Assembly: GCA_002030045.1 (NCBI GenBank)
Contig: LQBI01000031.1
Span: 158,854 to 198,617, forward strand
DNA length: 39,764 bases
Source of the DNA: Candidatus Aegiribacteria sp. MLS_C
Lineage (GTDB): Bacteria; Fermentibacterota; Fermentibacteria; Fermentibacterales; JCC-6
Direction: 5' to 3'
The position numbers were made by a program, and so were the translations under genes. This document shows, one piece after another, positions 26,720-39,521 of this stretch; position 1 is the stretch's first letter; the number at the start of each line of letters is the position of its first letter. The notes below the pieces were generated by a model. That model was not told the DNA's origin. It ran no database searches and saw only the letters and a program-made list of their open reading frames with translations.

Positions 26720-29719
26720 ATGCAGGACAGGAGACTGGACGAAGTCGTGGGCCGGAGGGGCGATGAGACGGTTCCCTTCTACTCACTCATGTCCAGGAGG
26801 ATCAGGAACGTGCTCCTCGTGTCCAGCCTGTACGATTCCTACACCCTGGAGGAGGACGGAAGGTTCACAGAGGTCCTGTTCTCGGAGTACCTGAGCCTCA
26901 ATCTGAGGTACGCCCCGCGCATAGTCAGGGTATCAACCGGCGAGGAGGCCCTCGAGAGACTGGGAACAGAGGACTTCGACCTGGTCATCTCAATGCTGAA
27001 CATCGGTTCGATGCATTTCGACCAGCTTGGAAAGGCCATCAAGGAAAGGGTTCCGGGACTTCCCTTCGTTGTCCTTGCCTACACGGGCAGAGACCTGAGG
27101 GTATTCGAGGAGAAGGGCAGGCTGGAGAGCGTCGACCAGGTTTTCATCTGGCAGGGCGACGTGAGGCTCTTCCTTGCAATAATCAAGTCGGTGGAGGACA
27201 GGCTCAACGCTGAACACGATTCCAGCGTGGCCGGGGTCAAATGCATCATCCTGGTGGAGGATTCGATACGCTTCTGCTCGTCCTACCTGCCCATGCTCTA
27301 CACCGAGCTGATGGAGCAGACGCAGATGCTGATGACAGAGGGCGTCAACCAGATGCAGAAGCTGATGAGGATGAGGGCGCGGCCCAAGATACTGCACGCG
27401 GACGACTACGAGGGCGGTCTCCAGCTCTACAGGTCCTTCAGGGAGAACCTTCTGGGCGTCATACTGGACGTGAGGTTCAGGAAGGACGGCGTCGAGTACC
27501 CCAGGGCGGGATTCCAGCTGGCGGAGGAGATACGCTCCGGAAGTCCGGAGTGCCCCATACTGTTCCAGTCCTCCGAGGAGATAAACAGGCAGCTGGCAGC
27601 CAGGATCGGGGCAGCATTCATAAACAAGAACTCCCCCACACTGCTGGCGGACCTCAGGAAGTTCATGCAGGACTACCTGGGTTTCGGTGATTTCGTGTTC
27701 AGGAGTCCCGAGGGCGTCGAGGAGGCCAGGGCCGGCGACCTAAGGGAGATGAGACGGGTGCTGAGGAAGGTATCCGATGCAAGTCTCTTCTACCACGCGG
27801 AGAGGAACGATTTCTCCACGTGGCTAATGGCCAGGACGGAGTTCGACCTGGCCAACGCGCTGAGACCCCAGAAAGTCGACGATTTCCGCTCCGCCGCGGA
27901 CCTCAGGGAGTATCTCATTTCCTCGCTCACCCTCTGGATGGAACGTTCCAGGGCCGGCCAGGTGGAGGAATTCTCCAGGGATACCTTCGACTACTTCACC
28001 GAGTTCACCAAGATAGGTCCCGGATCCCTTGGCGGCAAAGGCAGAGGGCTGGCCTTCGTGAATGCGCTGCTTAACATGTACAGGATAGACCAGGGTTTCG
28101 AGGAAGTGTACATTCACGTGCCGCCGACAGCGGTGGTGGCCACCGGTGTCTTCGACAGCTTCATGGAGAATCCGGGACTTGGCGGGCTGGTATTCGGCGG
28201 CATGGGGACTGAGGGGGGTCCCTTCGACAGGGAGTGGGACAGGAGCGTAGCGGCCGCTTTCCTGGATGCGCCGATGCCTGGCGATGCAGTGGACATGATT
28301 CGGACTTTTCTCAAGAAGGTCGACTACCCACTTGCAGTCAGGTCTTCCAGTCTCCTCGAGGACAGTCCGGCACATCCTTTCGCAGGCATATACAGAACCT
28401 ACATGCTGCCCAACAACTCTCCGGACATCGAAGTCAGGCTTCTCCAGCTTCTGAACGCCATCAGGCTGGTCTACGCCTCGACCTTCTACAGAGAGTCGAT
28501 AGCCTATATGGAGAGCACTCCGAACAGGCTGGAAGAAGAGAAGATGGCGGTTGTGATACAGCGGGTCGTGGCCAGGAAGCACGGCGAATCCTTCTATCCG
28601 AATCTCGCCGGTGTAGCCAAGTCGTACAACTACTACCCCCTGGACGGCATGGGGGAGGAGAGCGGTGTCGTCTCCGTGGCCCTGGGCCTGGGAAGCACCG
28701 TGGTGGACGGCGGCAGGTGCGTAAGGTTCTCGCCTGATTCACCCGGCAGGCTCTACCAGTTCTCCAGTACCGAAGAGTTCCTGAGGAACTCGCAGAGGGA
28801 GTTCCTGGCCCTGGACCTGGCGGGAGGGGCCACGGTGGACCTGGAGGACCCCGGGAGGGACGTACACCTCGTTAAACTGGACCTGGAGAGGGCTGAGTCC
28901 GACGGGACCCTCCCGCCGGTGGGGTCGGTCTACTCGGCTGAGAACGATATGATAATGGACGGCACTTTCCGTCCCGGTGCCAGGCTCATCACCATGGCCG
29001 GAGTGCTCAAGGGCGACTACTTCCCGCTGGCGCCTCTGCTACGGAGGCTTCTCGAAGTCGGGAAACTGGCCTTTTCCGGGGATATTGAACTGGAGTTCGC
29101 CGTTAACCTCGGCAACGTCAGAAAGGGAGAAAAACACGAGTTCGGGTTCCTACAGATAAGACCGATGGCACAGGCAACTGGCGCGATGCCGGAAGTTGAC
29201 GACCGTGACAGGGGGGGATCCGTCTGCATCTCACACCGGGTAATGGGTTACGGGATCATCGACGGGATCCAGGACATAGTCTACGTGTCGCCCCGCACCT
29301 TCGAGCGTTCGAAGAGCGCGATCATAGCAGGTCAGATCGAGCAGGTTAACAGCAGGCTGCGCAGGCTCAGGAGGCATTCGCTCCTTATCGGTCCGGGCAG
29401 GTGGGGGAGTTCGGACAGCTGGCTGGGCATACCGGTAAAGTGGAACCAGATATCCTCGGTGAAGTGCATCGTGGAGACACCCCTGGAGGACATGGAGGTC
29501 ACCCCGTCGCAGGGCACCCACTTCTTCCAGAACATTACTTCCCTGGGCATCGGGTACTTCACCATCACCAGGGATCCCGATGATTTCATCGACTACGACT
29601 TCCTCGAGGAGCACAGCGCACTTTCCAGGACGGATTTCGTCAGCCACATACATCTATACAAGTCCCTCCAGATCCTGATCAATCCCAGGGAGAAGAAGGG
29701 CGTCATAAGACTGACCTAG
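26720..29719 (+). CDS. REC-REC-PPDK_N (PEP synthase-like) signalling protein
   Basis: A 999-residue cytoplasmic protein. The start has GGGAGG 5 nt upstream. Residues of about 28-155 are a receiver-like domain whose usual phospho-Asp position reads LVISMLN, so it is probably degenerate. Residues of about 172-325 are a second receiver domain with IILVEDS, LLGVILDVRF (acceptor Asp) and the lysine in FINKNS. Residues of about 425-815 are the pyruvate phosphate dikinase N-terminal ATP-grasp domain: KIGPGSLGGKGRG, PLAVRSSSLLEDS and FLQIRPM. The swivelling phosphohistidine and PEP/pyruvate barrel domains are absent. A unique C-terminal domain (about 830-999) follows. Similar proteins are annotated in Bacteroidetes as PEP synthase. 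Actual PEP synthesis is unlikely; a phosphotransfer role is inferred. Confidence 0.8.
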   Translation: MQDRRLDEVVGRRGDETVPFYSLMSRRIRNVLLVSSLYDSYTLEEDGRFTEVLFSEYLSLNLRYAPRIVRVSTGEEALERLGTEDFDLVISMLNIGSMHFDQLGKAIKERVPGLPFVVLAYTGRDLRVFEEKGRLESVDQVFIWQGDVRLFLAIIKSVEDRLNAEHDSSVAGVKCIILVEDSIRFCSSYLPMLYTELMEQTQMLMTEGVNQMQKLMRMRARPKILHADDYEGGLQLYRSFRENLLGVILDVRFRKDGVEYPRAGFQLAEEIRSGSPECPILFQSSEEINRQLAARIGAAFINKNSPTLLADLRKFMQDYLGFGDFVFRSPEGVEEARAGDLREMRRVLRKVSDASLFYHAERNDFSTWLMARTEFDLANALRPQKVDDFRSAADLREYLISSLTLWMERSRAGQVEEFSRDTFDYFTEFTKIGPGSLGGKGRGLAFVNALLNMYRIDQGFEEVYIHVPPTAVVATGVFDSFMENPGLGGLVFGGMGTEGGPFDREWDRSVAAAFLDAPMPGDAVDMIRTFLKKVDYPLAVRSSSLLEDSPAHPFAGIYRTYMLPNNSPDIEVRLLQLLNAIRLVYASTFYRESIAYMESTPNRLEEEKMAVVIQRVVARKHGESFYPNLAGVAKSYNYYPLDGMGEESGVVSVALGLGSTVVDGGRCVRFSPDSPGRLYQFSSTEEFLRNSQREFLALDLAGGATVDLEDPGRDVHLVKLDLERAESDGTLPPVGSVYSAENDMIMDGTFRPGARLITMAGVLKGDYFPLAPLLRRLLEVGKLAFSGDIELEFAVNLGNVRKGEKHEFGFLQIRPMAQATGAMPEVDDRDRGGSVCISHRVMGYGIIDGIQDIVYVSPRTFERSKSAIIAGQIEQVNSRLRRLRRHSLLIGPGRWGSSDSWLGIPVKWNQISSVKCIVETPLEDMEVTPSQGTHFFQNITSLGIGYFTITRDPDDFIDYDFLEEHSALSRTDFVSHIHLYKSLQILINPREKKGVIRLT

Positions 29720-29777: not shown

Positions 29778-31130
29778 CTAGACCACGCCCTGGGCCATCA
29801 TGGCATCGGCAACCTTGCGGAATCCGGCAGCGTTGGCGCCAAGGACGTAGTTGGTGGGATCGCCGTACCTCTCCGCCGCGGCCTTCGCCTGGGCGTGGAT
29901 GTTGATCATTATGCTGTGGAGCTTCCTGTCAACTTCCTCCCGGGACCAGCTGGAGAAGATTGCGTTCTGAGCCATCTCCAGGCCTGAAGTGGCGACACCG
30001 CCGGCGTTGGCGGCCTTGCCCGGACCATAGAGGATACCGTGCTGAAGGAAAATGTCCACTCCAGCGGGCACCGTGGGCATGTTGGCACCTTCCGACACGA
30101 GGTAGACGCCGTTGTTTATCAGGTTCTGGGCATCCTTCTCGTTGATCTCGTTCTGCGTGGCGCAGGGGAAGGCGCAGTCTGCGCTGTAGTTCCAGAGCGG
30201 ATTGTAGTCCAGCTCGGGGTCTGCGGGTGTGTACACTGCTCTGTTGTACTTCTCGACGTACTCCTTGATCCTGCCCCGTCTGTTGTTCTTGAGGTCCATG
30301 ACGAAAGCCAGCTTCTCCGTGTTGATGCCCTCCTCGTCGTAGATGCAGCCGCTGGAGTCGGAGAGTGTGACCACCCTGGCGCCAAGCTGGTTGAGCTTCT
30401 CGGTGGCGTACTGGGCCACGTTGCCCGAGCCTGAGACCAGGCAGACCTTTCCCTCATAGTTCTCGCCCCTGGTCTTCAGCATCTCCTCGCCGAAGTAGAC
30501 CGCGCCGTAGCCTGTGGCCTCGGGTCTTATGAGGCTGCCGCCGTATTCCAGTCCCTTGCCGGTCAAAACGCCGCTCCACTCGTTGCGGAGCTTCTTGTAC
30601 TGGCCGAAGAGGAAGCCTATCTCGCGTCCGCCCACGCCTATGTCACCGGCGGGGACGTCGGTGCTGGGTCCGATGTGACGGAAGAGTTCGGACATGAAAC
30701 TCTGGCAGAACTTCATGACCTCGATGTCGGACTTGCCCTTGGGGTCGAAGTCGGAACCGCCCTTGCCTCCGCCCATGGGAATGGTTGTGAGGGCGTTCTT
30801 GAAGACCTGCTCGAAGGCAAGGAACTTGAGGATACCGAGGTTAACCGAGGGGTGGAAGCGGAGCCCGCCCTTGTAGGGACCGATGGCGCTGTTCATCTCG
30901 ATCCTGAAACCGCGGTTGACCTGCACCTCGCCGTTGTCGTCAACCCAGGGAACCCTGAACATTATTACCCGCTCGGGCTCCACGATCCTCTCGGGGATCC
31001 TGGCCCTGCGGTACTCAGGGTGCTTCTCGAGGACTACCTCCAGGGAATCAAGGACCTCCTTGACAGCCTGGTGGAATTCAGGCTGCGCCGGGTCCTTCTC
31101 TACGATCTTGTGATAGAGTTCTTCCAGCAT
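29778..31130 (-). CDS. gdhA: NADP-type glutamate dehydrogenase
   Basis: A 450-residue enzyme interconverting 2-oxoglutarate plus ammonia and glutamate. The start at 31130 (GGGAGG about 9 nt upstream) gives the normal length; a reading from 31202 adds a cysteine-rich tail unlike the family. The substrate region is GPYKGGLRFHPSVNLGILKFLAFEQVFKNALT. The catalytic lysine motif is MGGGKGGSDFDPKGKSD. The Rossmann segment is VCLVSGSGNVAQYATEKL (S-G-S-G-N), typical of the hexameric NADP form. It links nitrogen assimilation, or amino-acid fermentation, to the NADP(H) pool that the complex encoded downstream on the other strand may feed. Confidence 0.95.
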   Translation of the reverse strand: MLEELYHKIVEKDPAQPEFHQAVKEVLDSLEVVLEKHPEYRRARIPERIVEPERVIMFRVPWVDDNGEVQVNRGFRIEMNSAIGPYKGGLRFHPSVNLGILKFLAFEQVFKNALTTIPMGGGKGGSDFDPKGKSDIEVMKFCQSFMSELFRHIGPSTDVPAGDIGVGGREIGFLFGQYKKLRNEWSGVLTGKGLEYGGSLIRPEATGYGAVYFGEEMLKTRGENYEGKVCLVSGSGNVAQYATEKLNQLGARVVTLSDSSGCIYDEEGINTEKLAFVMDLKNNRRGRIKEYVEKYNRAVYTPADPELDYNPLWNYSADCAFPCATQNEINEKDAQNLINNGVYLVSEGANMPTVPAGVDIFLQHGILYGPGKAANAGGVATSGLEMAQNAIFSSWSREEVDRKLHSIMINIHAQAKAAAERYGDPTNYVLGANAAGFRKVADAMMAQGVV

Positions 31131-31221
31131 CTCCGGGCTCCTCCCTTCGAGGGTACTGCATTTGAGAACAAAACACCTGAAAAGGACATATTTCCTATCC
31201 ATGTACCAAGAATAAGCTACT

Positions 31222-31401: not shown

Positions 31402-31564
31402 GCTGAAATGCGCAGCATTATGCAGGTTGTTTTGAACCAGTACCTGCAGTTCTGCATTCGCGTGAAATATGATGGGGCAGAACTGCCATGCTGAACTGCA
31501 GTTCTGCATTCGCGTGAAATATGATGGGGCAGAACTGCCATGCTGAAATGCGCAGCATTTCAGC
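31402..31564. repeat. Perfect 52-bp tandem duplication within a hairpin array
   Basis: Two identical 52-bp units stand head to tail at 31444-31495 and 31496-31547. Each contains the 10-bp inverted repeat GCAGTTCTGC/GCAGAACTGC, 21 nt apart. The arms of neighbouring units can also pair with each other. The array is flanked by an 18-bp direct repeat GCTGAAATGCGCAGCATT at 31402-31419 and 31542-31559. The right copy forms a perfect hairpin (10-bp stem 31542-31551 / 31555-31564, loop GCA). It lies in the 465-bp gap between gdhA and the regulator gene. The rest of that gap holds only the promoter candidates. Confidence 0.9.
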
Positions 31565-31667
31565 CGTTGACTTACGCCCACCCTCATCTTAACGTTCCTC
31601 CGTTATTATGCGGATTGGGGTCGGAACAGGTTTTCTTACGGACCAGCTCAATATGAGGAGGCATCTA

Positions 31668-32654
31668 TTGAAAGGCCGCGTACTGGTGATCGACGATGAG
31701 ACCGAGATCCGCCGGACTCTCGACTACGGGCTCACCCACGAGGGTTATACGGTAGTCACCTGTTCAGACGGTATCTCCGCGATACATGCGCTCTCAGAGG
31801 CAGATGATAGTGGGGAAGGATACGACTACATAGTGACAGACGTATTCCTTCCCGATATCGACGGTCTGAAGATGCTCAAGGTGATCAGGTACATATATCC
31901 TGAAGTCCCCGTTCTTGTTGTGACGGGCTTCGGGGACGATGACCTTGAACGTTCAGTACTCTCGAAGAGCAATACGGGATACCTCGAGAAACCTATCGGT
32001 ATAGCCGATCTGGTGGAGGCTCTCCAGAGGCTTTCCAGGGGGTACACCGGCTCCCCCGCTGCGGTTACGGGGCCGGAAGAGGACATTGAAGGACCGTTCA
32101 GGGCATACCTGACCGTAAGGATCACCGAACCTGACAGGAGCATGGAGATCTACGACTCTTTGCGCAGAATGGACGGGATCGTCTCGTGTGATGCGGTCAG
32201 GGGAGACTTCGACCTGGTCCTGGTGGCCCGGGCACCGTCCAGGGCGGGGATCGAGGGAATTATGGACAGTATTGGATCACTGGACGGCATAGATGTGGTT
32301 TCCGTACGCGAAGTGAAGAGGCCCCGTCTGGAAAGAGACGTCGAACGCTTCATCAATGTATACAGGCATATGGCAGGAAGTGAAACACGGACCGAAACCG
32401 ATGACTGTTCCAAGAACACAGGTTACCTTATCGTGGACATCGATCCTGATTCCATCCAGAGGGTGTACACAACGGTCTTCTTCATGGACGACGTAGTCTC
32501 CTGCGACATGCTGGACGAGTGTGATGGGCTCATGGTGACCATAGCGGACCGGGGTGCCGTGGGCAGAACTCCGAAAACGGTACAGAGATTAAGGCAGATC
32601 GACGGTGTCCTCAGGGTCCGGGAGGCCAGAGCGATCAGGCTCGTGGAGGATTGA
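31668..32654 (+). CDS. Response-regulator receiver with two RAM-like domains
   Basis: About 328 residues. I choose the TTG at 31668 because GAGGAGG lies 6-7 nt upstream and the receiver domain (KGRVLVIDDE) begins at once; upstream ATGs at 31653 and 31608 lack this. The receiver domain (1-125) is complete: D9/D10, acceptor D58, T86 and K108. Two segments, about 138-218 and 245-325, each show the beta-alpha-beta-beta-alpha-beta pattern of Lrp/AsnC RAM ligand domains (FRAYLTVRI, GDFDLVLVARA, IDVVSVREV; TGYLIVDI, CDGLMVTIAD, VLRVREA). No helix-turn-helix, GGDEF or kinase domain is present. It precedes the NuoEFG-like genes and may control them or bind the complex. No histidine kinase is adjacent. 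Confidence 0.75.
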   Translation: MKGRVLVIDDETEIRRTLDYGLTHEGYTVVTCSDGISAIHALSEADDSGEGYDYIVTDVFLPDIDGLKMLKVIRYIYPEVPVLVVTGFGDDDLERSVLSKSNTGYLEKPIGIADLVEALQRLSRGYTGSPAAVTGPEEDIEGPFRAYLTVRITEPDRSMEIYDSLRRMDGIVSCDAVRGDFDLVLVARAPSRAGIEGIMDSIGSLDGIDVVSVREVKRPRLERDVERFINVYRHMAGSETRTETDDCSKNTGYLIVDIDPDSIQRVYTTVFFMDDVVSCDMLDECDGLMVTIADRGAVGRTPKTVQRLRQIDGVLRVREARAIRLVED

Positions 32655-32692: not shown

Positions 32693-32741
32693 AGTATCTC
32701 CCTTTTGCCGTCTGGCGGGATGGGAGAGACTGAAGGGAGTG

Positions 32742-33221
32742 ATGGAAACGGCTGCAAGTAAAGAGAGCTTCAGCTACAGACTCTGGAGGTACGAAGGTCA
32801 GCCGGGAGAGCTGATCCCCCTCCTGCAGTCAGCCCAGGAGCATTTCGGCTACATTCCGAGAAGAGCCATCAGCTACATTGCCGGAGCTACGGGTATTCCC
32901 GAGTCAGACATATACGGTGTGATAACCTTCTACTCCCAGTTCAGGCTCCAACCCATGGGAAAACATGTCATCCGTGCCTGCGCCGGAACCGCATGCCACG
33001 TATCTGGTGCCAAGCTCATAAGGGAGACAATAGAGGATGAACTGGGGATCGAGGAAGGTGAAACGACCGAGGACGGACTTTTCACCCTGAATACCGTCGC
33101 CTGTATCGGCTGCTGCTCCCTTGCACCGGTGATGATGGTTAACGATGAAACCCACGGCAGGCTCACACCGGCTTCCGTGCGGAAGATACTACGCGGTTAC
33201 AGGAAGAAAGCGGCGGATTAG
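32742..33221 (+). CDS. nuoE: NuoE-like [2Fe-2S] thioredoxin-fold subunit
   Basis: A 159-residue protein of the NuoE/HydC family. It opens with a helix bundle (LIPLLQSAQEHFGYIPRRAI), then the [2Fe-2S] thioredoxin-like domain with C-x4-C (RACAGTACHV) and C-x3-C (VACIGCCSLAP). ATG 32742 is preferred over the GTG three bases earlier. It passes electrons with the NuoF-like subunit at the NADH site. It lies 80 nt before nuoF, with only a plain gap between. Part of a soluble complex; no membrane Nuo subunits are present. Confidence 0.92.
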   Translation: METAASKESFSYRLWRYEGQPGELIPLLQSAQEHFGYIPRRAISYIAGATGIPESDIYGVITFYSQFRLQPMGKHVIRACAGTACHVSGAKLIRETIEDELGIEEGETTEDGLFTLNTVACIGCCSLAPVMMVNDETHGRLTPASVRKILRGYRKKAAD

Positions 33222-33301
33222 TCGGAATGAGTGTCCGGAGAATCCTGTGAGGGAACCGCTCGCCTTTTCCTTTGAAAACAGATGAACGTCTGGAGCAATC
33301 T

Positions 33302-35083
33302 ATGAAGAAGATATTTGTTGGAATGGGGACCTGCGGACTTTCCGCCGGCGCCAGGGCGACTTACGACAGGCTGGAGGCCCTTGCCGCCGAGCACCCCGAG
33401 GTCTGTACCCTGGCCAGGACGGGCTGTATCGGCATGTGCTACAGGGAACCTCTGGTGGAGATCAGGGAGGATGACAGGAGGATCATATACGGGGACGTTA
33501 CCCCTGAATCCGCTGAGGAGATCTTCAGAAGACATGTCCTGGATGATCAGGTACTGGATGGTGAAAACCTGGTCTACTCCCGTGGACAGAATGGTGAGAC
33601 AGCAGGATCCGAGTGCGATTTCCTCGACCAGCAGACCAGGATAGTCCTGCGGAACTGCGGGACGATAGATCCCGAGTCAATAGGGGACTACGAGGAAGCC
33701 GGAGGCTACCTGGCCCTCAGGAAGGTCCTTGATTCCATGAAACCGGACGAGATCATTCAGGTGATCAAGGACTCGGGGCTCCGTGGAAGGGGAGGAGCGG
33801 GTTTTCCTACCGGCCTGAAATGGTCCTTCGCGGCGGCCAATGAAGGGGATGTGAAATACGTTGTCTGCAACGCTGACGAAGGCGACCCCGGAGCTTTCAT
33901 GGACCGTTCGGTCCTGGAGGGAGATCCGCACTCGGTTCTGGAGGGCATGATAATATGCGCCAGGGCTATCGGAGCCTCTTCCGGTTACATCTACTGCCGT
34001 GCCGAGTACCCCCTGGCAATAAAAAGGCTGGAGATCGCCATCGAGGCAGCCCGGGGCAGAGGGTACCTGGGAACGGACATACTGGGGTCCGGATTCGATT
34101 TTGACATAAAGATAAAACAGGGTGCCGGTGCATTCGTCTGCGGAGAGGAGACCGCCCTCTTCGCTTCCATAGAGGGCGAGAGGGGTATGCCGAGGATAAG
34201 GCCCCCCTTTCCGGCCGAGAAGGGTCTCTGGAAGAAACCAACCAACAACAACAATGTCGAGACCTATGCCAACGTGCCGTGGATAATCATGAACGGTGCA
34301 GGTGCATTCACCGCCTGCGGTACGGAGAAGAGCCCGGGCACGAAGGTCTTCGCCCTGGCCGGGAAGGTTGCTCACGGTGGTCTGGCAGAGGTTCCAATGG
34401 GGACTACGATCGAAGACCTGGTCTTCAGGATAGGCGGCGGGATAAAGAAGGGCAAGAAGTTCAAGGCGGTCCAGATGGGAGGCCCGTCCGGCGGGTGCAT
34501 TCCGGCATCGATGAAGGAAACTCCGGTCGATTTCGAGTCGATACCGGCTACAGGGGCGATCATGGGCTCCGGCGGAATGGTCGTCATGGACGAGGACACC
34601 TGCATGGTGGAGATCGCAAGGTTCTTCCTTGATTTCACGCAGAAGGAATCCTGCGGAAAGTGCACCTTCTGCCGCATAGGTACACTCAGGATGCTGGAGA
34701 TCCTCGAGAGGATAACCAGGGGCGAGGGTGTACCCGAGGACATAGAGAAACTCGAGAAACTCTCGGTACAGATCAAGGAGGCCAGTCTCTGCGGGCTCGG
34801 GCAGACGGCCCCCAACCCTGTCCAGACTACACTGAGGTACTATTCGGACGAATACCGGGCCCATATCTTCGAGAGGAAATGCCCTGCAGGAGAGTGTCAG
34901 GCCCTCGTCGAGTTCAGCATCGACCCGGAAAAGTGCGTGGGATGCACTCTCTGCGCGAAGAACTGCCCGGTGAACGCCATATCCGGCAAGGTCAGGGAAG
35001 TTCACGTCATCGACACCGAAGTTTGCGTCAAATGCGGCAAATGCGTCACTAGCTGCAACTTCGGCGCGATAGTGAAAAGGTAG
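33302..35083 (+). CDS. nuoF: NuoF/HydB-like NADH-binding flavoprotein with extra Fe-S domains
   Basis: A 593-residue NADH- and FMN-binding subunit. ATG 33302 has GGAG 6 nt upstream; a TTG at 33272 is weaker. Domains in order: an N-terminal [2Fe-2S] thioredoxin-like domain (GTCGLSAGA, TGCIGMCYREP; about 1-90) and the NADH/FMN core (GLRGRGGAGFPTGLKW near 162-177, NADEGDPGAFMDR near 190, GAGAFVCGEETAL near 275). Next come an SLBB segment, the NADH_4Fe-4S site SCGKCTFCR near 450, and a C-terminal two-cluster ferredoxin (CVGCTLCAKNCP, CVKCGKCVTSCN). This layout is that of bifurcating HydB/NfnB-partner proteins rather than respiratory complex I. It sits 9 nt before the fusion gene. Confidence 0.93.
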   Translation: MKKIFVGMGTCGLSAGARATYDRLEALAAEHPEVCTLARTGCIGMCYREPLVEIREDDRRIIYGDVTPESAEEIFRRHVLDDQVLDGENLVYSRGQNGETAGSECDFLDQQTRIVLRNCGTIDPESIGDYEEAGGYLALRKVLDSMKPDEIIQVIKDSGLRGRGGAGFPTGLKWSFAAANEGDVKYVVCNADEGDPGAFMDRSVLEGDPHSVLEGMIICARAIGASSGYIYCRAEYPLAIKRLEIAIEAARGRGYLGTDILGSGFDFDIKIKQGAGAFVCGEETALFASIEGERGMPRIRPPFPAEKGLWKKPTNNNNVETYANVPWIIMNGAGAFTACGTEKSPGTKVFALAGKVAHGGLAEVPMGTTIEDLVFRIGGGIKKGKKFKAVQMGGPSGGCIPASMKETPVDFESIPATGAIMGSGGMVVMDEDTCMVEIARFFLDFTQKESCGKCTFCRIGTLRMLEILERITRGEGVPEDIEKLEKLSVQIKEASLCGLGQTAPNPVQTTLRYYSDEYRAHIFERKCPAGECQALVEFSIDPEKCVGCTLCAKNCPVNAISGKVREVHVIDTEVCVKCGKCVTSCNFGAIVKR

Positions 35084-35092
35084 GAGCGGCCA

Positions 35093-38000
35093 ATGGAGAA
35101 GATCAGGCTCAGGATCAACGGCAGGGAGATAGAGGCCACTCCAGGGAAGACGATCCTCGAAGTGGTACAGGAGAACCAGCTGGACGATATTCCGACCCTG
35201 TGTCATTCACCGGAGCTGGAGCCCTACGGTTCCTGCTTCCTCTGCGTCGTCGAGGTCAAGGGAAGGAACAACCTCGTTCCTTCCTGCGCCACGAAGATCT
35301 CGCCCGGCATGGAGGTGGAGACCAGGAACGAAAGGATAATCGCTTCGCGCAGGACGGCACTCGAACTGCTGACTTCCAACCATTACGCGGACTGCGTTTC
35401 CCCGTGCATGGAGGGATGTCCTGCCGGAGTCGATGTCCAGGGCTACATTGCACTGGCGGCCATGGGCCAGTACAGGAAGGCCGTGGACCTTATCCGGGAG
35501 ACCAACCCGCTTCCGGCGGTCTGCGGACGAGTGTGCGTACGGAAGTGCGAGGAAGTCTGCCGAAGGAAGGACATAGACGCCTCGGTAGCCATCAACAACA
35601 TCAAGAGGTTCGTATCCGATTCGCCGGAAGCTTACGCCACCGACCCTCAGGGAGACCCTGACACGGGAAGGACCGTCGGAATAATCGGATCGGGACCGGC
35701 CGGCCTCACCGCCGCGTGGTTCCTTGCCAGGAGCGGCATAAAGCCGGTCATCTACGAGATGAACCAGCGCACCGGAGGCATGCTCCGATACGGTATTCCC
35801 GAGTACAGGCTCCCGGACGACGTTCTCGACAGGGAAGTCGAATACATATGCAGGGCAGGGGTGGAGATAAGGTGCGGAGTAAAGGTCGGCAGGGATGTAA
35901 GCCTGGACGAGCTGAGGAAGAGGCACGATGCCGTCTTCATAGGTCCGGGTGCCTGGACCGGCAAAGCCATGAGGGTCGAGGGCGAGTACGATACCGAAGG
36001 CGTGGTCACCGGCGCCGACTTCCTGGTGGAGAAGGCCGACGATCCGGAACCAGTATCCGGCACGGTAGTCGTGGTCGGCGGCGGGAATACCGCCATGGAC
36101 GCCGCCAGGACATCGTGGAGGCTTAATGCCGACAAGGTAATAATCCTGTATCGCCGCACAAGGGCGGAGATGCCGGCTGATCCCATGGAGATCGAGGACT
36201 GCCTGGACGAGGGCATCGAGATAATGGAGCTGGCTGCTCCGACCGGAATAGTCAGGAAGGACGGCAGGCTGGTCGCCCTGAAGTGCCAGAGGATGAAGCT
36301 GGGCGATCCCGATGCATCTGGACGCCGCAGGCCGATACCCATCGAGGGCGCGGAGTTCGAACTGCCCTGTGAACTCGCCATATCCGCCATCGGGCAGGAC
36401 ACCGTCCTGAACGGCCTGGTCGAGGCGGAAGGGGAGGAGATAGAACTCACGCGATGGAACACATACGTGATCGATCCCGGGACGATGATGACGAACATAG
36501 AGGGGGTTTTCGCCGGAGGTGACGCGGCCGACGATGGTCCCACAGTGGCAATTGACGCCATCCGCGACGGCCAGAAGGCCGCAGCGGCGATCCGGGCCTG
36601 GCTCCTGGGCGAGGACCCGGCGCCTGAACCCTTCGTCGTGAGGAAGGACTTCTGGGAGAAGCCCGGACATGCCGAAATGGGTGATATCAGGGAATCGCCT
36701 CGTCACGAAGTGCACATGATAGATGTGGACGAGAGACGCAGCAGCTTTGTCGAGGTATCAACCGGTTTCGAGCCTGAAGACAACGTCCACGAGTGCGGGA
36801 GGTGCCTCTCATGCGGCTGCGTCAGGTTCGAGGACTGCAAACTCAGGCTCTACGCCGAGGAGTACGGCGTGGATATGGAGCACTTCAGGGGCCGTGTCCG
36901 GAAGCACAGGGTGGACGACCGCCATCCCTACATCGTCTACGATCCCAACAAGTGCATACTATGCGCCAGATGCATAAGGACCTGCGCTCGGATACTTCCC
37001 ATACCCGCCCTGGGACTGGTTAACAGGGGCTTCAGGACCGAGATGCGTCCGGCGATGAACGATCCTCTGATAGAGACAAGCTGCGTCAGCTGCGGGAACT
37101 GTGTGGACTCATGCCCCACCGCGGCCCTGACGGTCAAGTACCCTTTCCCGGGCAGGGCCTGCCTCGAGAGCGAGGATGTGAAGTCACACTGCGGGTTCTG
37201 TTCCCTCGGCTGCGAGATAACGGTGAAGAATTTCGGGGAGGGAAGGTACTACATAACCTCCTCGGGAGTGCCCGGGGACTACCTCTGCAGGTACGGGCGC
37301 TTCGGGAATGAACTCTTCATCAGGAAGGACAGGCTCACGGGCGCGGTCTGGAAGCAGGGATCGACCTATTCACCCGTAAGCCTGAGGACCGCCTACTCCG
37401 GAATAGTGGAAAGCCTCAGAAGGATCGCGGAGGAATACGGACCGGAGAGCGTCGGTGTTTTCGTCTCGCCGGAGCTGACCAATGAGGAACTGTACCTTTC
37501 CGGCAGGATAGCGAGGGAAGGCATCGGGACAAGCAACGTGGGGTCCCTCGCCATCATCTCGGGCGCCGGCAGGTCCGGGGTCCTGGACGGGTCCTTCGGT
37601 TTCACGGCATCGACATCTGACAGGGGATGCCTTTCGGATGCCGACCTGATAATCTGCAACAACACATCCCTGGAGTCCGACCATCTGGTGCTGGCGGTTG
37701 ACGTCATCCAGGCGGTGCGTGACGGTGCGAAGCTCGTTGTCTCGAACTCGATCCTCGACTCCACAGACCAGCATATCGCTGCGTTGACCGTGGATCCGAT
37801 CAGGGGCAGGGCCTCCTTCTTCTGGAATGCCGTCATGCAGGTCCTGATCGACGACGGGGACGTTGACCCGCAGGGACTCGAGGGAGCCGATGACTTCCTT
37901 AGGGACCGGGAGGTCACAGTGGAGTCCGCTGCCGCGAAGGCTGGAGTGGACGTAAGCGATGTGTACGAGACCGCCGAACTGCTTCGCTACGCCGGCAAGG

Positions 38001-38758
38001 TCGTATTCGTGCACAGCCCCGACCGTGCGCAGGATGCGTCCCCGGACGACATGGAGATCTTCGCGGACCTCACGCTCCTATTGAGGGATAAGGGCAGGAG
38101 GGTGGACATACTGCTTCCCAGGCTGCTGGCCAACAGCGCGGGCCTCGAGGTTACGGGAGCGGATCCGGCGTTCCTTCCAGGAAGGAGACCGTCAAGGGAC
38201 GGTCTGCCCGGTGCGGCTTCCAGTCAGGATCTGAGGCGGATGCTCGAGGTTGGAGGGCTCAGGGCGGCACTGGTGGTCGGGGAGAACCCTCTCGAACACG
38301 ACATGACGGGCTCCTGGTTCAGCAACGTGGATTTCCTGGCGGCGATGGACTGGACCGATACCGAGACCACCCGGTTCGCCGATTATACGATCCCGGGAAC
38401 GACTTACCTCGAGACACCGGGAACCAGGTGCAACTTCGAGGGCAGGCTCATCGATTTTGCAGGCGCGGTAATGCCTCCCTCGGGAAGGAGCAGCATCGAG
38501 GTGCTGCAGGGTCTCGCCTCGGCCTTCGGGATCGATCCTTCGACGGAAGGACTCGATACCCTGGTCAGGGACAGCCTGGGAGAGCTGGCGAGGTTCTACT
38601 GGAACACTGGGCAGGAAAGGGAGTGGGACGGAAGAGGGAAGCTGGTCCCGGTAGCGGCCGAGGCGAAGGCGGCTCCGTTAGAGCCTCCTCTGACCCATTC
38701 CCAGGAATACAGGCAGGAGATCCGCCTGGTAGGCACCGAACGCTACCGCGTCACCTAG
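35093..38758 (+). CDS. GltD-like/NuoG-like fusion subunit, catalytically dead formate-dehydrogenase domain
   Basis: 1221 residues; AGGAG lies 6 nt before the ATG. The N-terminal [2Fe-2S] domain (LCHSPELEPYGSCFLC, about 36-65) is NuoG-like. Residues of about 95-520 form a GltD/NfnB-type NADPH:ferredoxin flavoprotein. It shows CVSPCMEGCPAGVD, GIIGSGPAGLTAAWFLA (FAD, near 197), VVVVGGGNTAMDAAR (NADPH, near 324) and GVFAGGDAADDGPT. A further cysteine cluster (CGRCLSCGCVRFEDC) lies near 568, and two [4Fe-4S] sites near 621 and 664. The molybdopterin-type domain starts with CGFCSLGCE (near 700) and LCRYGRFGNELF. Where formate dehydrogenases have the catalytic Cys/Sec, this protein reads ISGAGRSGVL. 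The C-terminal dinucleotide-binding domain is also missing. It is most like Sporomusa-type (Stn) bifurcating transhydrogenase subunits. Confidence 0.85.
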   Translation: MEKIRLRINGREIEATPGKTILEVVQENQLDDIPTLCHSPELEPYGSCFLCVVEVKGRNNLVPSCATKISPGMEVETRNERIIASRRTALELLTSNHYADCVSPCMEGCPAGVDVQGYIALAAMGQYRKAVDLIRETNPLPAVCGRVCVRKCEEVCRRKDIDASVAINNIKRFVSDSPEAYATDPQGDPDTGRTVGIIGSGPAGLTAAWFLARSGIKPVIYEMNQRTGGMLRYGIPEYRLPDDVLDREVEYICRAGVEIRCGVKVGRDVSLDELRKRHDAVFIGPGAWTGKAMRVEGEYDTEGVVTGADFLVEKADDPEPVSGTVVVVGGGNTAMDAARTSWRLNADKVIILYRRTRAEMPADPMEIEDCLDEGIEIMELAAPTGIVRKDGRLVALKCQRMKLGDPDASGRRRPIPIEGAEFELPCELAISAIGQDTVLNGLVEAEGEEIELTRWNTYVIDPGTMMTNIEGVFAGGDAADDGPTVAIDAIRDGQKAAAAIRAWLLGEDPAPEPFVVRKDFWEKPGHAEMGDIRESPRHEVHMIDVDERRSSFVEVSTGFEPEDNVHECGRCLSCGCVRFEDCKLRLYAEEYGVDMEHFRGRVRKHRVDDRHPYIVYDPNKCILCARCIRTCARILPIPALGLVNRGFRTEMRPAMNDPLIETSCVSCGNCVDSCPTAALTVKYPFPGRACLESEDVKSHCGFCSLGCEITVKNFGEGRYYITSSGVPGDYLCRYGRFGNELFIRKDRLTGAVWKQGSTYSPVSLRTAYSGIVESLRRIAEEYGPESVGVFVSPELTNEELYLSGRIAREGIGTSNVGSLAIISGAGRSGVLDGSFGFTASTSDRGCLSDADLIICNNTSLESDHLVLAVDVIQAVRDGAKLVVSNSILDSTDQHIAALTVDPIRGRASFFWNAVMQVLIDDGDVDPQGLEGADDFLRDREVTVESAAAKAGVDVSDVYETAELLRYAGKVVFVHSPDRAQDASPDDMEIFADLTLLLRDKGRRVDILLPRLLANSAGLEVTGADPAFLPGRRPSRDGLPGAASSQDLRRMLEVGGLRAALVVGENPLEHDMTGSWFSNVDFLAAMDWTDTETTRFADYTIPGTTYLETPGTRCNFEGRLIDFAGAVMPPSGRSSIEVLQGLASAFGIDPSTEGLDTLVRDSLGELARFYWNTGQEREWDGRGKLVPVAAEAKAAPLEPPLTHSQEYRQEIRLVGTERYRVT

Positions 38759-38858: not shown

Positions 38859-39521
38859 TCAGGAATGATGTGTTCTGGAACCTGACAGATCGGGATTCCG
38901 TGACTTCATGGCGCTGATGAACCACTGTCTTGCGGCGGGTCTGTTCCTTGCAGCTGCTTTTCTTATTCTGAGGAGCACTTCGGCGTCCGGCTCGATCGTC
39001 AGAAAGCCCTCCCAGTCATCGATACTCAGATACTGATCGGAATCCACGGATATAAGAGGGTCGGAACGTTTCCTTCCAGTATGGTAAGCAGCACTTGACC
39101 ATCTGTATTCCCAGGCTTCGCCCACGATCCCTGCCCTTACGGGATTCTGCTCCACATATCTGACAGCATTGTGGAGGTAAGAAGGGCCGAGCGGACTTGA
39201 GCTGAACCGGTACTGCCAGAGATGACCGCTCCATTCATTCTGTCGGTTCACATTACGGGAATACAGTGAGTGGGCTTTCCTGAAGCATCTGGCGAACGAA
39301 TCCCCTTTTCCCGGAACAGCTACGAGGTGAACGTGGTTGTCCATCAGACACCATGATATGAAGATGACATCCTCCTCCAAAGCCGATTTGCGGATGAGCG
39401 ACAGGTACTCGTATCTGTCGGAGTCGGAGAAGAAGACATTCTGCTTCCTGTTGCCTCTCTGGACTATGTGGTGAGGCAGTTGAGGTACTACTGTTCTCGC
39501 GGTTCTGGCCATAGTGAACAT
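38859..39521 (-). CDS. REP-associated tyrosine transposase (Y1_Tnp/RAYT)
   Basis: A 220-residue single-strand HUH transposase of the IS200/RAYT group. Motifs: HHIVQRGNRKQNVFF near 17-31, the metal-binding HUH in WCLMDNHVHLVAVP near 57-70, and the catalytic tyrosine in AVRYVEQNPVRAG near 119-131. The C-terminal tail (SSAAYHTGRKRSDPL) is typical of RAYTs. The first ATG (39521) and an ATG three codons later (39512) are both possible. There is no second transposon gene and no clear terminal repeat, so it is a domesticated-type single-copy gene or the core of a REP-type element. It is flanked by AT-richer DNA. Confidence 0.92.
   Translation of the reverse strand: MFTMARTARTVVPQLPHHIVQRGNRKQNVFFSDSDRYEYLSLIRKSALEEDVIFISWCLMDNHVHLVAVPGKGDSFARCFRKAHSLYSRNVNRQNEWSGHLWQYRFSSSPLGPSYLHNAVRYVEQNPVRAGIVGEAWEYRWSSAAYHTGRKRSDPLISVDSDQYLSIDDWEGFLTIEPDAEVLLRIRKAAARNRPAARQWFISAMKSRNPDLSGSRTHHS

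Follow-up and report, generated by a model that had tools for sequence, protein, structure and literature searches.

What does a response regulator control when it carries no DNA-binding domain and its gene immediately precedes those of a predicted electron-bifurcating transhydrogenase? In many anaerobes, enzymes of this kind determine the pools of NADH, NADPH and ferredoxin, and to our knowledge little is known about how their activity is controlled. The question is raised by a 39,764-nucleotide stretch of the Candidatus Aegiribacteria sp. MLS_C genome (home phylum Fermentibacterota), here called the window. A gene at 31668-32654 (+), delimited by its open reading frame, Pfam, AlphaFold2 and alignment, encodes a 328-amino-acid response regulator in which a receiver is followed by two RAM domains.

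Domain architecture of the regulator

The reading frame is real, as both its TTG start and the ribosome-binding site GAGGAGG at 31655-31661 (+) are kept in relatives. The receiver domain spans residues 1-122 (31668-32033, +) and matches Pfam Response_reg at 2e-21. It retains the acidic pair D9/D10, the phosphoacceptor D58, T86 and K108, so the receiver is catalytically complete, as the preliminary description had stated. In 30 regulator sequences from three phyla, whose identity to the window protein is about 23-55%, the invariant residues are D9, D58, K108, P109, C174, G179 and D182, and C279 is near-invariant.

The first RAM domain, of the Lrp/AsnC ligand-binding type, covers residues 143-218 (32094-32321, +) and holds the invariant C174 and a G179-x-x-D182 motif. 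It scores above the Pfam cut-off for AsnC_trans_reg (1.8e-8), a match that recurs in all 36 home-phylum orthologues and in 30/30 members of the three-phylum alignment. The second RAM-type domain, residues 250-324 (32415-32639, +) with the near-invariant C279, falls under Pfam cut-offs when the window protein is taken alone. Its weak match to NapD (19.4 bits, where the family cut-off is 28) was rejected as an identity in favor of a duplicated RAM domain. Profiles of the two domains drawn from the three phyla align with an HHalign probability of 98.7% (E 1.6e-16), and BLAST comparison of the two within single proteins gives E-values as low as 1e-16. Judged by these alignments, the two domains are a tandem duplication.

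AlphaFold2 models, one of the full-length protein with 36 orthologues (mean pLDDT 73) and one of the C-terminal half alone (mean pLDDT 77), are of moderate confidence and show a beta-alpha-beta-beta-alpha-beta fold twice, at 144-217 and 251-322, with a helix joining both. No helix-turn-helix or winged helix is found in the regulator by Pfam, NCBIfam or the AlphaFold2 models. The earlier claim that the output consists of two RAM-type folds and nothing else is therefore borne out by Pfam for the first domain, by the models for both and by their HHalign homology, and the modeled C-terminal half contains two ferredoxin-like folds where a winged helix might have appeared. Since the regulator has no DNA-binding domain, it can reasonably be supposed to act by protein contact. 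A whole-genome search found no Lrp/AsnC ligand domain in the window's genome other than those of the regulator.

Because the receiver dominates Foldseek matches of the full-length model, the C-terminal half was modeled by itself for this comparison. Its single output domains match Lrp-type structures, and both domains taken as a unit align with single-chain alpha+beta barrels at a query TM-score of about 0.50-0.56. Heme binding of the kind seen in these barrel relatives was rejected, as the C-terminal half has no invariant or nearly invariant histidine in the 30 regulator sequences. Amino-acid binding, for its part, is not a requirement of the RAM fold.

Stn genes and nfnAB at the regulator locus

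Three genes follow the regulator on the same strand. stnA (32739-33221, +) encodes a NuoE-like 2Fe-2S subunit (NCBIfam NuoE, 1.4e-49), and stnB (33302-35083, +) a NuoF-like FMN/NAD subunit with a C-terminal ferredoxin part (NCBIfam nuoF_fam, 6e-150); the listed open reading frame of stnB begins at 33272, and its start was set by homology at residue 11. stnC (35093-38758, +) encodes a 1221-amino-acid fusion of 2Fe-2S, GltD/NfnB-like and NuoG-like parts, with NCBIfam GltD-type and NuoG matches in one chain, and its layout is the same as that of StnC in PMC10482914. The NuoE-like, NuoF-like and GltD-NuoG fusion subunits of a predicted transhydrogenase are thus encoded in one operon, and they share the StnA/StnB/StnC layout of the Stn enzyme of Sporomusa ovata (PMC7483475, PMC10482914). 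On sequence grounds, the regulator's neighbors fit StnABC of a Sporomusa-type bifurcating transhydrogenase.

A genome scan with the single protein returned receivers alone, and a profile of the C-terminal half was required to trace the family. With it, 37 of the 42 home-phylum genomes yield a match, one per genome, and the regulator lies directly upstream of the NuoE-like, NuoF-like and GltD-NuoG fusion genes in 36/36 judgeable loci, a count that takes in one locus (G025) judged by its contig-end tail. The same profile finds full-length relatives in 16/396 genomes of an Acidobacteriota-centered sample and 7/396 of a Bacteroidota-centered one; these samples are partial, and the phylum names refer to their centers. 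Here too the regulator sits directly upstream of stnA in every locus (23/23), which brings the combined count to 59/59 testable loci in three phyla, in all of which it adjoins nuoEF-type genes. Two regulators from the Acidobacteriota-centered sample are 62-64% identical to a home orthologue, and the remaining outside regulators share about 29-36%. That the placement as first gene before stnABC holds even at about 30% regulator identity is counted for a dedication to Stn, although so strict an order can also reflect co-regulation instead of contact.

Two clusters in the Acidobacteriota-centered sample (L121 and L122, in G1095 and G1375) have a regulator-Stn-kinase arrangement near the home-phylum type, which suggests transfer or misplaced contigs. 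Samples centered on Omnitrophota (G046; 285 genomes), Chloroflexota (G048; 350) and Clostridia/Bacillota (G044; 399) contained no family member beyond short Lrp-like matches. These are weak negatives, and in the Chloroflexota sample the search used a full-length profile with a strict cut-off that left few candidates scored.

Upstream of the regulator, nfnA-nfnB, the genes of the other known bifurcating transhydrogenase, lie directly adjacent on the same strand in 30 home loci, and four further home loci are cut by contig ends. In three genomes, that of the window (G000), G013 and G035, nfnAB is missing at the regulator locus, and the phylum search found no orthologue elsewhere in them. The regulator of these three genomes is 54%, 37% and 74% identical to that of genus-mates, against at least 81% in all others, while their StnA, StnB, StnC and GDH identities are ordinary. 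On a fixed Stn topology, the same three carry the longest of 31 regulator end branches (4.24, 1.26 and 0.55; the next is 0.37), with ordinary StnAB end branches. They also rank as the top three by branch ratio, with G030 (7.05), which has nfnB, close behind G035 (7.73).

G009, a genome that has kept nfnAB and whose regulator is normal, forms a group with G000 and G013. The loss of nfnAB therefore took place in at least two events, that of G035 being separate and G000 and G013 representing one or two losses (support 57). In G039, Stn is present and both nfnAB and the regulator are absent; in G001, nfnAB is present without adjoining Stn genes and the regulator is absent. The locus of G027 is cut by a contig end. 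Within the home phylum, the regulator depends in evolution on the presence of nfnAB. Its fast evolution after nfnAB loss could reflect relaxed or changed function, and not the balancing of the two enzymes.

Among the loci of other phyla, nfnAB adjoins the regulator divergently in 7/23; with so few, Nfn is not a universal partner by neighborhood. An initial idea, that Nfn and Stn are both required by the regulator, was narrowed accordingly, most outside loci having no adjacent nfnAB.

The gap where relatives carry nfnAB is occupied in the window by repeats. A 52-bp unit at 31444-31547 is present in exact tandem duplication, with inverted GCAGTTCTGC/GCAGAACTGC motifs inside, and is flanked by an 18-bp direct repeat that also contributes to an 85% inverted pair. 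A gene resembling Y1 (REP-associated type) transposases (38859-39521, -) comes directly after stnC, with about 240 bases left before the contig end, and has 62-64% identical relatives near the same place in the loci of five genus-mates. There may be a link between this transposase-like gene and the palindromic repeats that precede the regulator.

Beyond the repeats lies the divergent gdhA (29778-31202, -), with no nfnAB between it and the regulator here. The preliminary description had placed the regulator in a setting of gdhA and a transhydrogenase operon. The transhydrogenase genes are indeed constant, but gdhA is not a general neighbor: it adjoins the regulator only where nfnAB has been lost, is separated from it by nfnAB in most relatives and is distant in several. 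A linkage to gdhA or amino acids was rejected as the main theme, the constant partner being stnABC, and the amino-acid/gdhA reading is only partly supported. A 999-amino-acid protein encoded at 26720-29719 (+), with a PEP-synthase-like (PPDK N-terminal) region after a long, receiver-like-looking N-terminal part, is of a type found near gdhA in many relatives.

Kinase arm and proposed role

Downstream of stnC, many loci carry a histidine kinase (PAS, HisKA, HATPase_c) and an NtrC-type regulator. In the home phylum these genes are adjacent in G004 and G041, and also in G005 and G025, where the NtrC-type gene is cut by the contig end; in G007, G009, G014 and G021 they lie a few kb downstream. The window's contig ends at 39764, before the position of the kinase genes in relatives. 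In the kinase at L066:15531-17528 and its orthologues, the PAS region shows the pattern C...PCxDC (KCYSTFFDREEPCPDC), possibly a metal or redox site. In four loci of genus 3 (L057, L061, L078 and L082), a sigma54-activator-like AAA+ gene lies just upstream of nfnA and is about 40% identical to the AAA+ part of the NtrC-type protein.

In the other phyla, every one of the 17 loci that can be read over the region encodes an NtrC-type protein with the GAFTGA loop. Strong sigma54 matches precede the regulator by 30-110 bp in 19/21 of the outside loci, where 0.5 would be expected from how densely such matches occur in the remainder of these loci. The home-type protein has the loop in none of seven readable loci (L122, a close relative, and six loci of the home phylum), and Pfam detects no Fis helix in the single home member scanned (L066). 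No sigma54 site stands out before home-phylum operons; a sigma54 promoter before the window operon was rejected, no match being better than in shuffled sequence. In the home genera that keep nfnAB, regulator identity is nevertheless at least 81%. Conservation of the REC-RAM-RAM protein while the sigma54 arm decayed argues against a purely transcriptional role.

We give an even chance to the reading that the regulator is a dedicated non-DNA-binding response regulator of Stn, acting probably by protein contact. In this mechanism, the histidine kinase of the cluster would phosphorylate the receiver, and the two RAM domains would together form a single-chain alpha+beta barrel, with a metabolite, a protein partner or both as its ligand. 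Phosphorylation and ligand would jointly decide whether the regulator binds StnABC, or StnABC and NfnAB, and this binding would set the split of electrons among NADH, NADPH and ferredoxin. The target of contact is probably either the Stn enzyme itself or the signaling that governs it. In lineages of other phyla, this kinase would in addition activate the operon by way of the NtrC-type protein and sigma54. The home phylum has a degenerate transcriptional arm, and there the protein-contact arm would remain. The bolder form of this proposal, in which a phospho-switch with a built-in metabolite sensor gates the bifurcating transhydrogenase and the NfnAB balance by contact in three phyla, is tentative.

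The main rival, which we regard as unlikely, takes the regulator for a second receiver of the operon's kinase, a phosphate sink or metabolite-sensing feedback part that tunes the NtrC-type protein and the sigma54 promoter and touches no enzyme. Kinase, NtrC-type regulator and sigma54 promoter do share an operon outside the home phylum, and the regulator heads the genes that follow this promoter, where a feedback part would be expected. Yet in the home phylum, where the sigma54 arm is degenerate, the regulator is highly conserved and fixed to stnA, the kinase and NtrC-type genes are several kb away in the four genus-1 genomes checked, and the dependence on nfnAB is left unexplained.

A different function for the tandem RAM domains would be that of a redox or metal/cofactor sensor, with C174 and C279 forming a disulfide or binding a ligand and the protein reporting redox state to the kinase or enzyme. 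The two cysteines, in 30/30 and at least 90% of sequences, respectively, occupy equivalent places in both repeats, and the setting is that of a redox enzyme. This reading is nonetheless improbable: L122 has no second cysteine, a histidine conserved for heme as in the Foldseek barrel relatives is missing, and ordinary Lrp proteins also show a cysteine at the place equivalent to C174 and C279. Still less probable is an ordinary amino-acid-responsive, Lrp-like regulator tied to gdhA and nitrogen metabolism; Lrp RAM domains bind amino acids (PMC2995911) and gdhA is the divergent next-door gene in the window genome, but the regulator has no DNA-binding domain, and gdhA lies at a varying distance and becomes a direct neighbor only after nfnAB loss, stnABC being the constant partner.

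If the proposed contact with Stn is true, flavin-based electron bifurcation would be under a post-translational control that three phyla share. With a regulator that accompanies stnABC at every testable locus of these phyla, and with its candidate kinase, the control of a transhydrogenase becomes open to direct experiment on proteins expressed in E. coli, a host in which Stn has already been made (PMC10482914).

Comparison with known systems

Tandem RAM domains joined to a receiver are a further type of response-regulator output, one that does not involve DNA binding. A text search of the Sporomusa ovata Stn papers finds no mention of a response regulator (PMC7483475, PMC10482914), and the titles and abstracts of open-licence literature on Stn and response regulators describe none of this kind. 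In acetogens, Stn and Nfn are reported to be almost mutually exclusive (PMC7483475), whereas 30 genomes of the home phylum have nfnAB, the regulator and stnABC side by side.

Like the regulator, stand-alone RAM proteins such as DM1 (PMC2995911) have the RAM fold without a helix-turn-helix, and the best PDB sequence matches of the first RAM domain are short archaeal proteins of this type, 2e1a and 2cvi. Unlike the regulator, they are archaeal, lack a receiver and consist of a single dimerizing domain (PMC2995911). Two fused ferredoxin-like domains are also found in chlorite dismutase, HemQ and the siroheme decarboxylase NirDL (PMC4835899); these single-chain barrels are heme or tetrapyrrole proteins, in contrast to the regulator with no conserved histidine in its C-terminal half, and identity is about 10%.

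The preliminary description knew of no described example of the architecture, a statement that needs two qualifiers. The first is archaeal REC-NitrOD1, whose NitrOD1 domain is, in the consulted part of PMC5847659, perhaps a variant of the Lrp/AsnC ligand domain. It differs in being confined to the Nitrosopumilus group, in having one domain and in being assigned by remote similarity, and that part of the paper reports no transhydrogenase link.

The second, Rv3143, is an output-less response regulator encoded near nuo in Mycobacterium. The consulted part of PMC9274095 describes it as a CheY-like receiver, called an orphan, that binds and modulates the Nuo complex, and mentions neither tandem RAM domains nor an Stn enzyme. 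Rv3143/MSMEG_2064 binds NuoD, with NuoE, F and G copurifying (PMC9274095). As far as this source goes, the likeness lies in the missing DNA-binding domain and in a gene placed in or near the operon of a NuoE/F/G-type redox complex, and the binding of Rv3143 to Nuo means that a contact mechanism of this kind exists.
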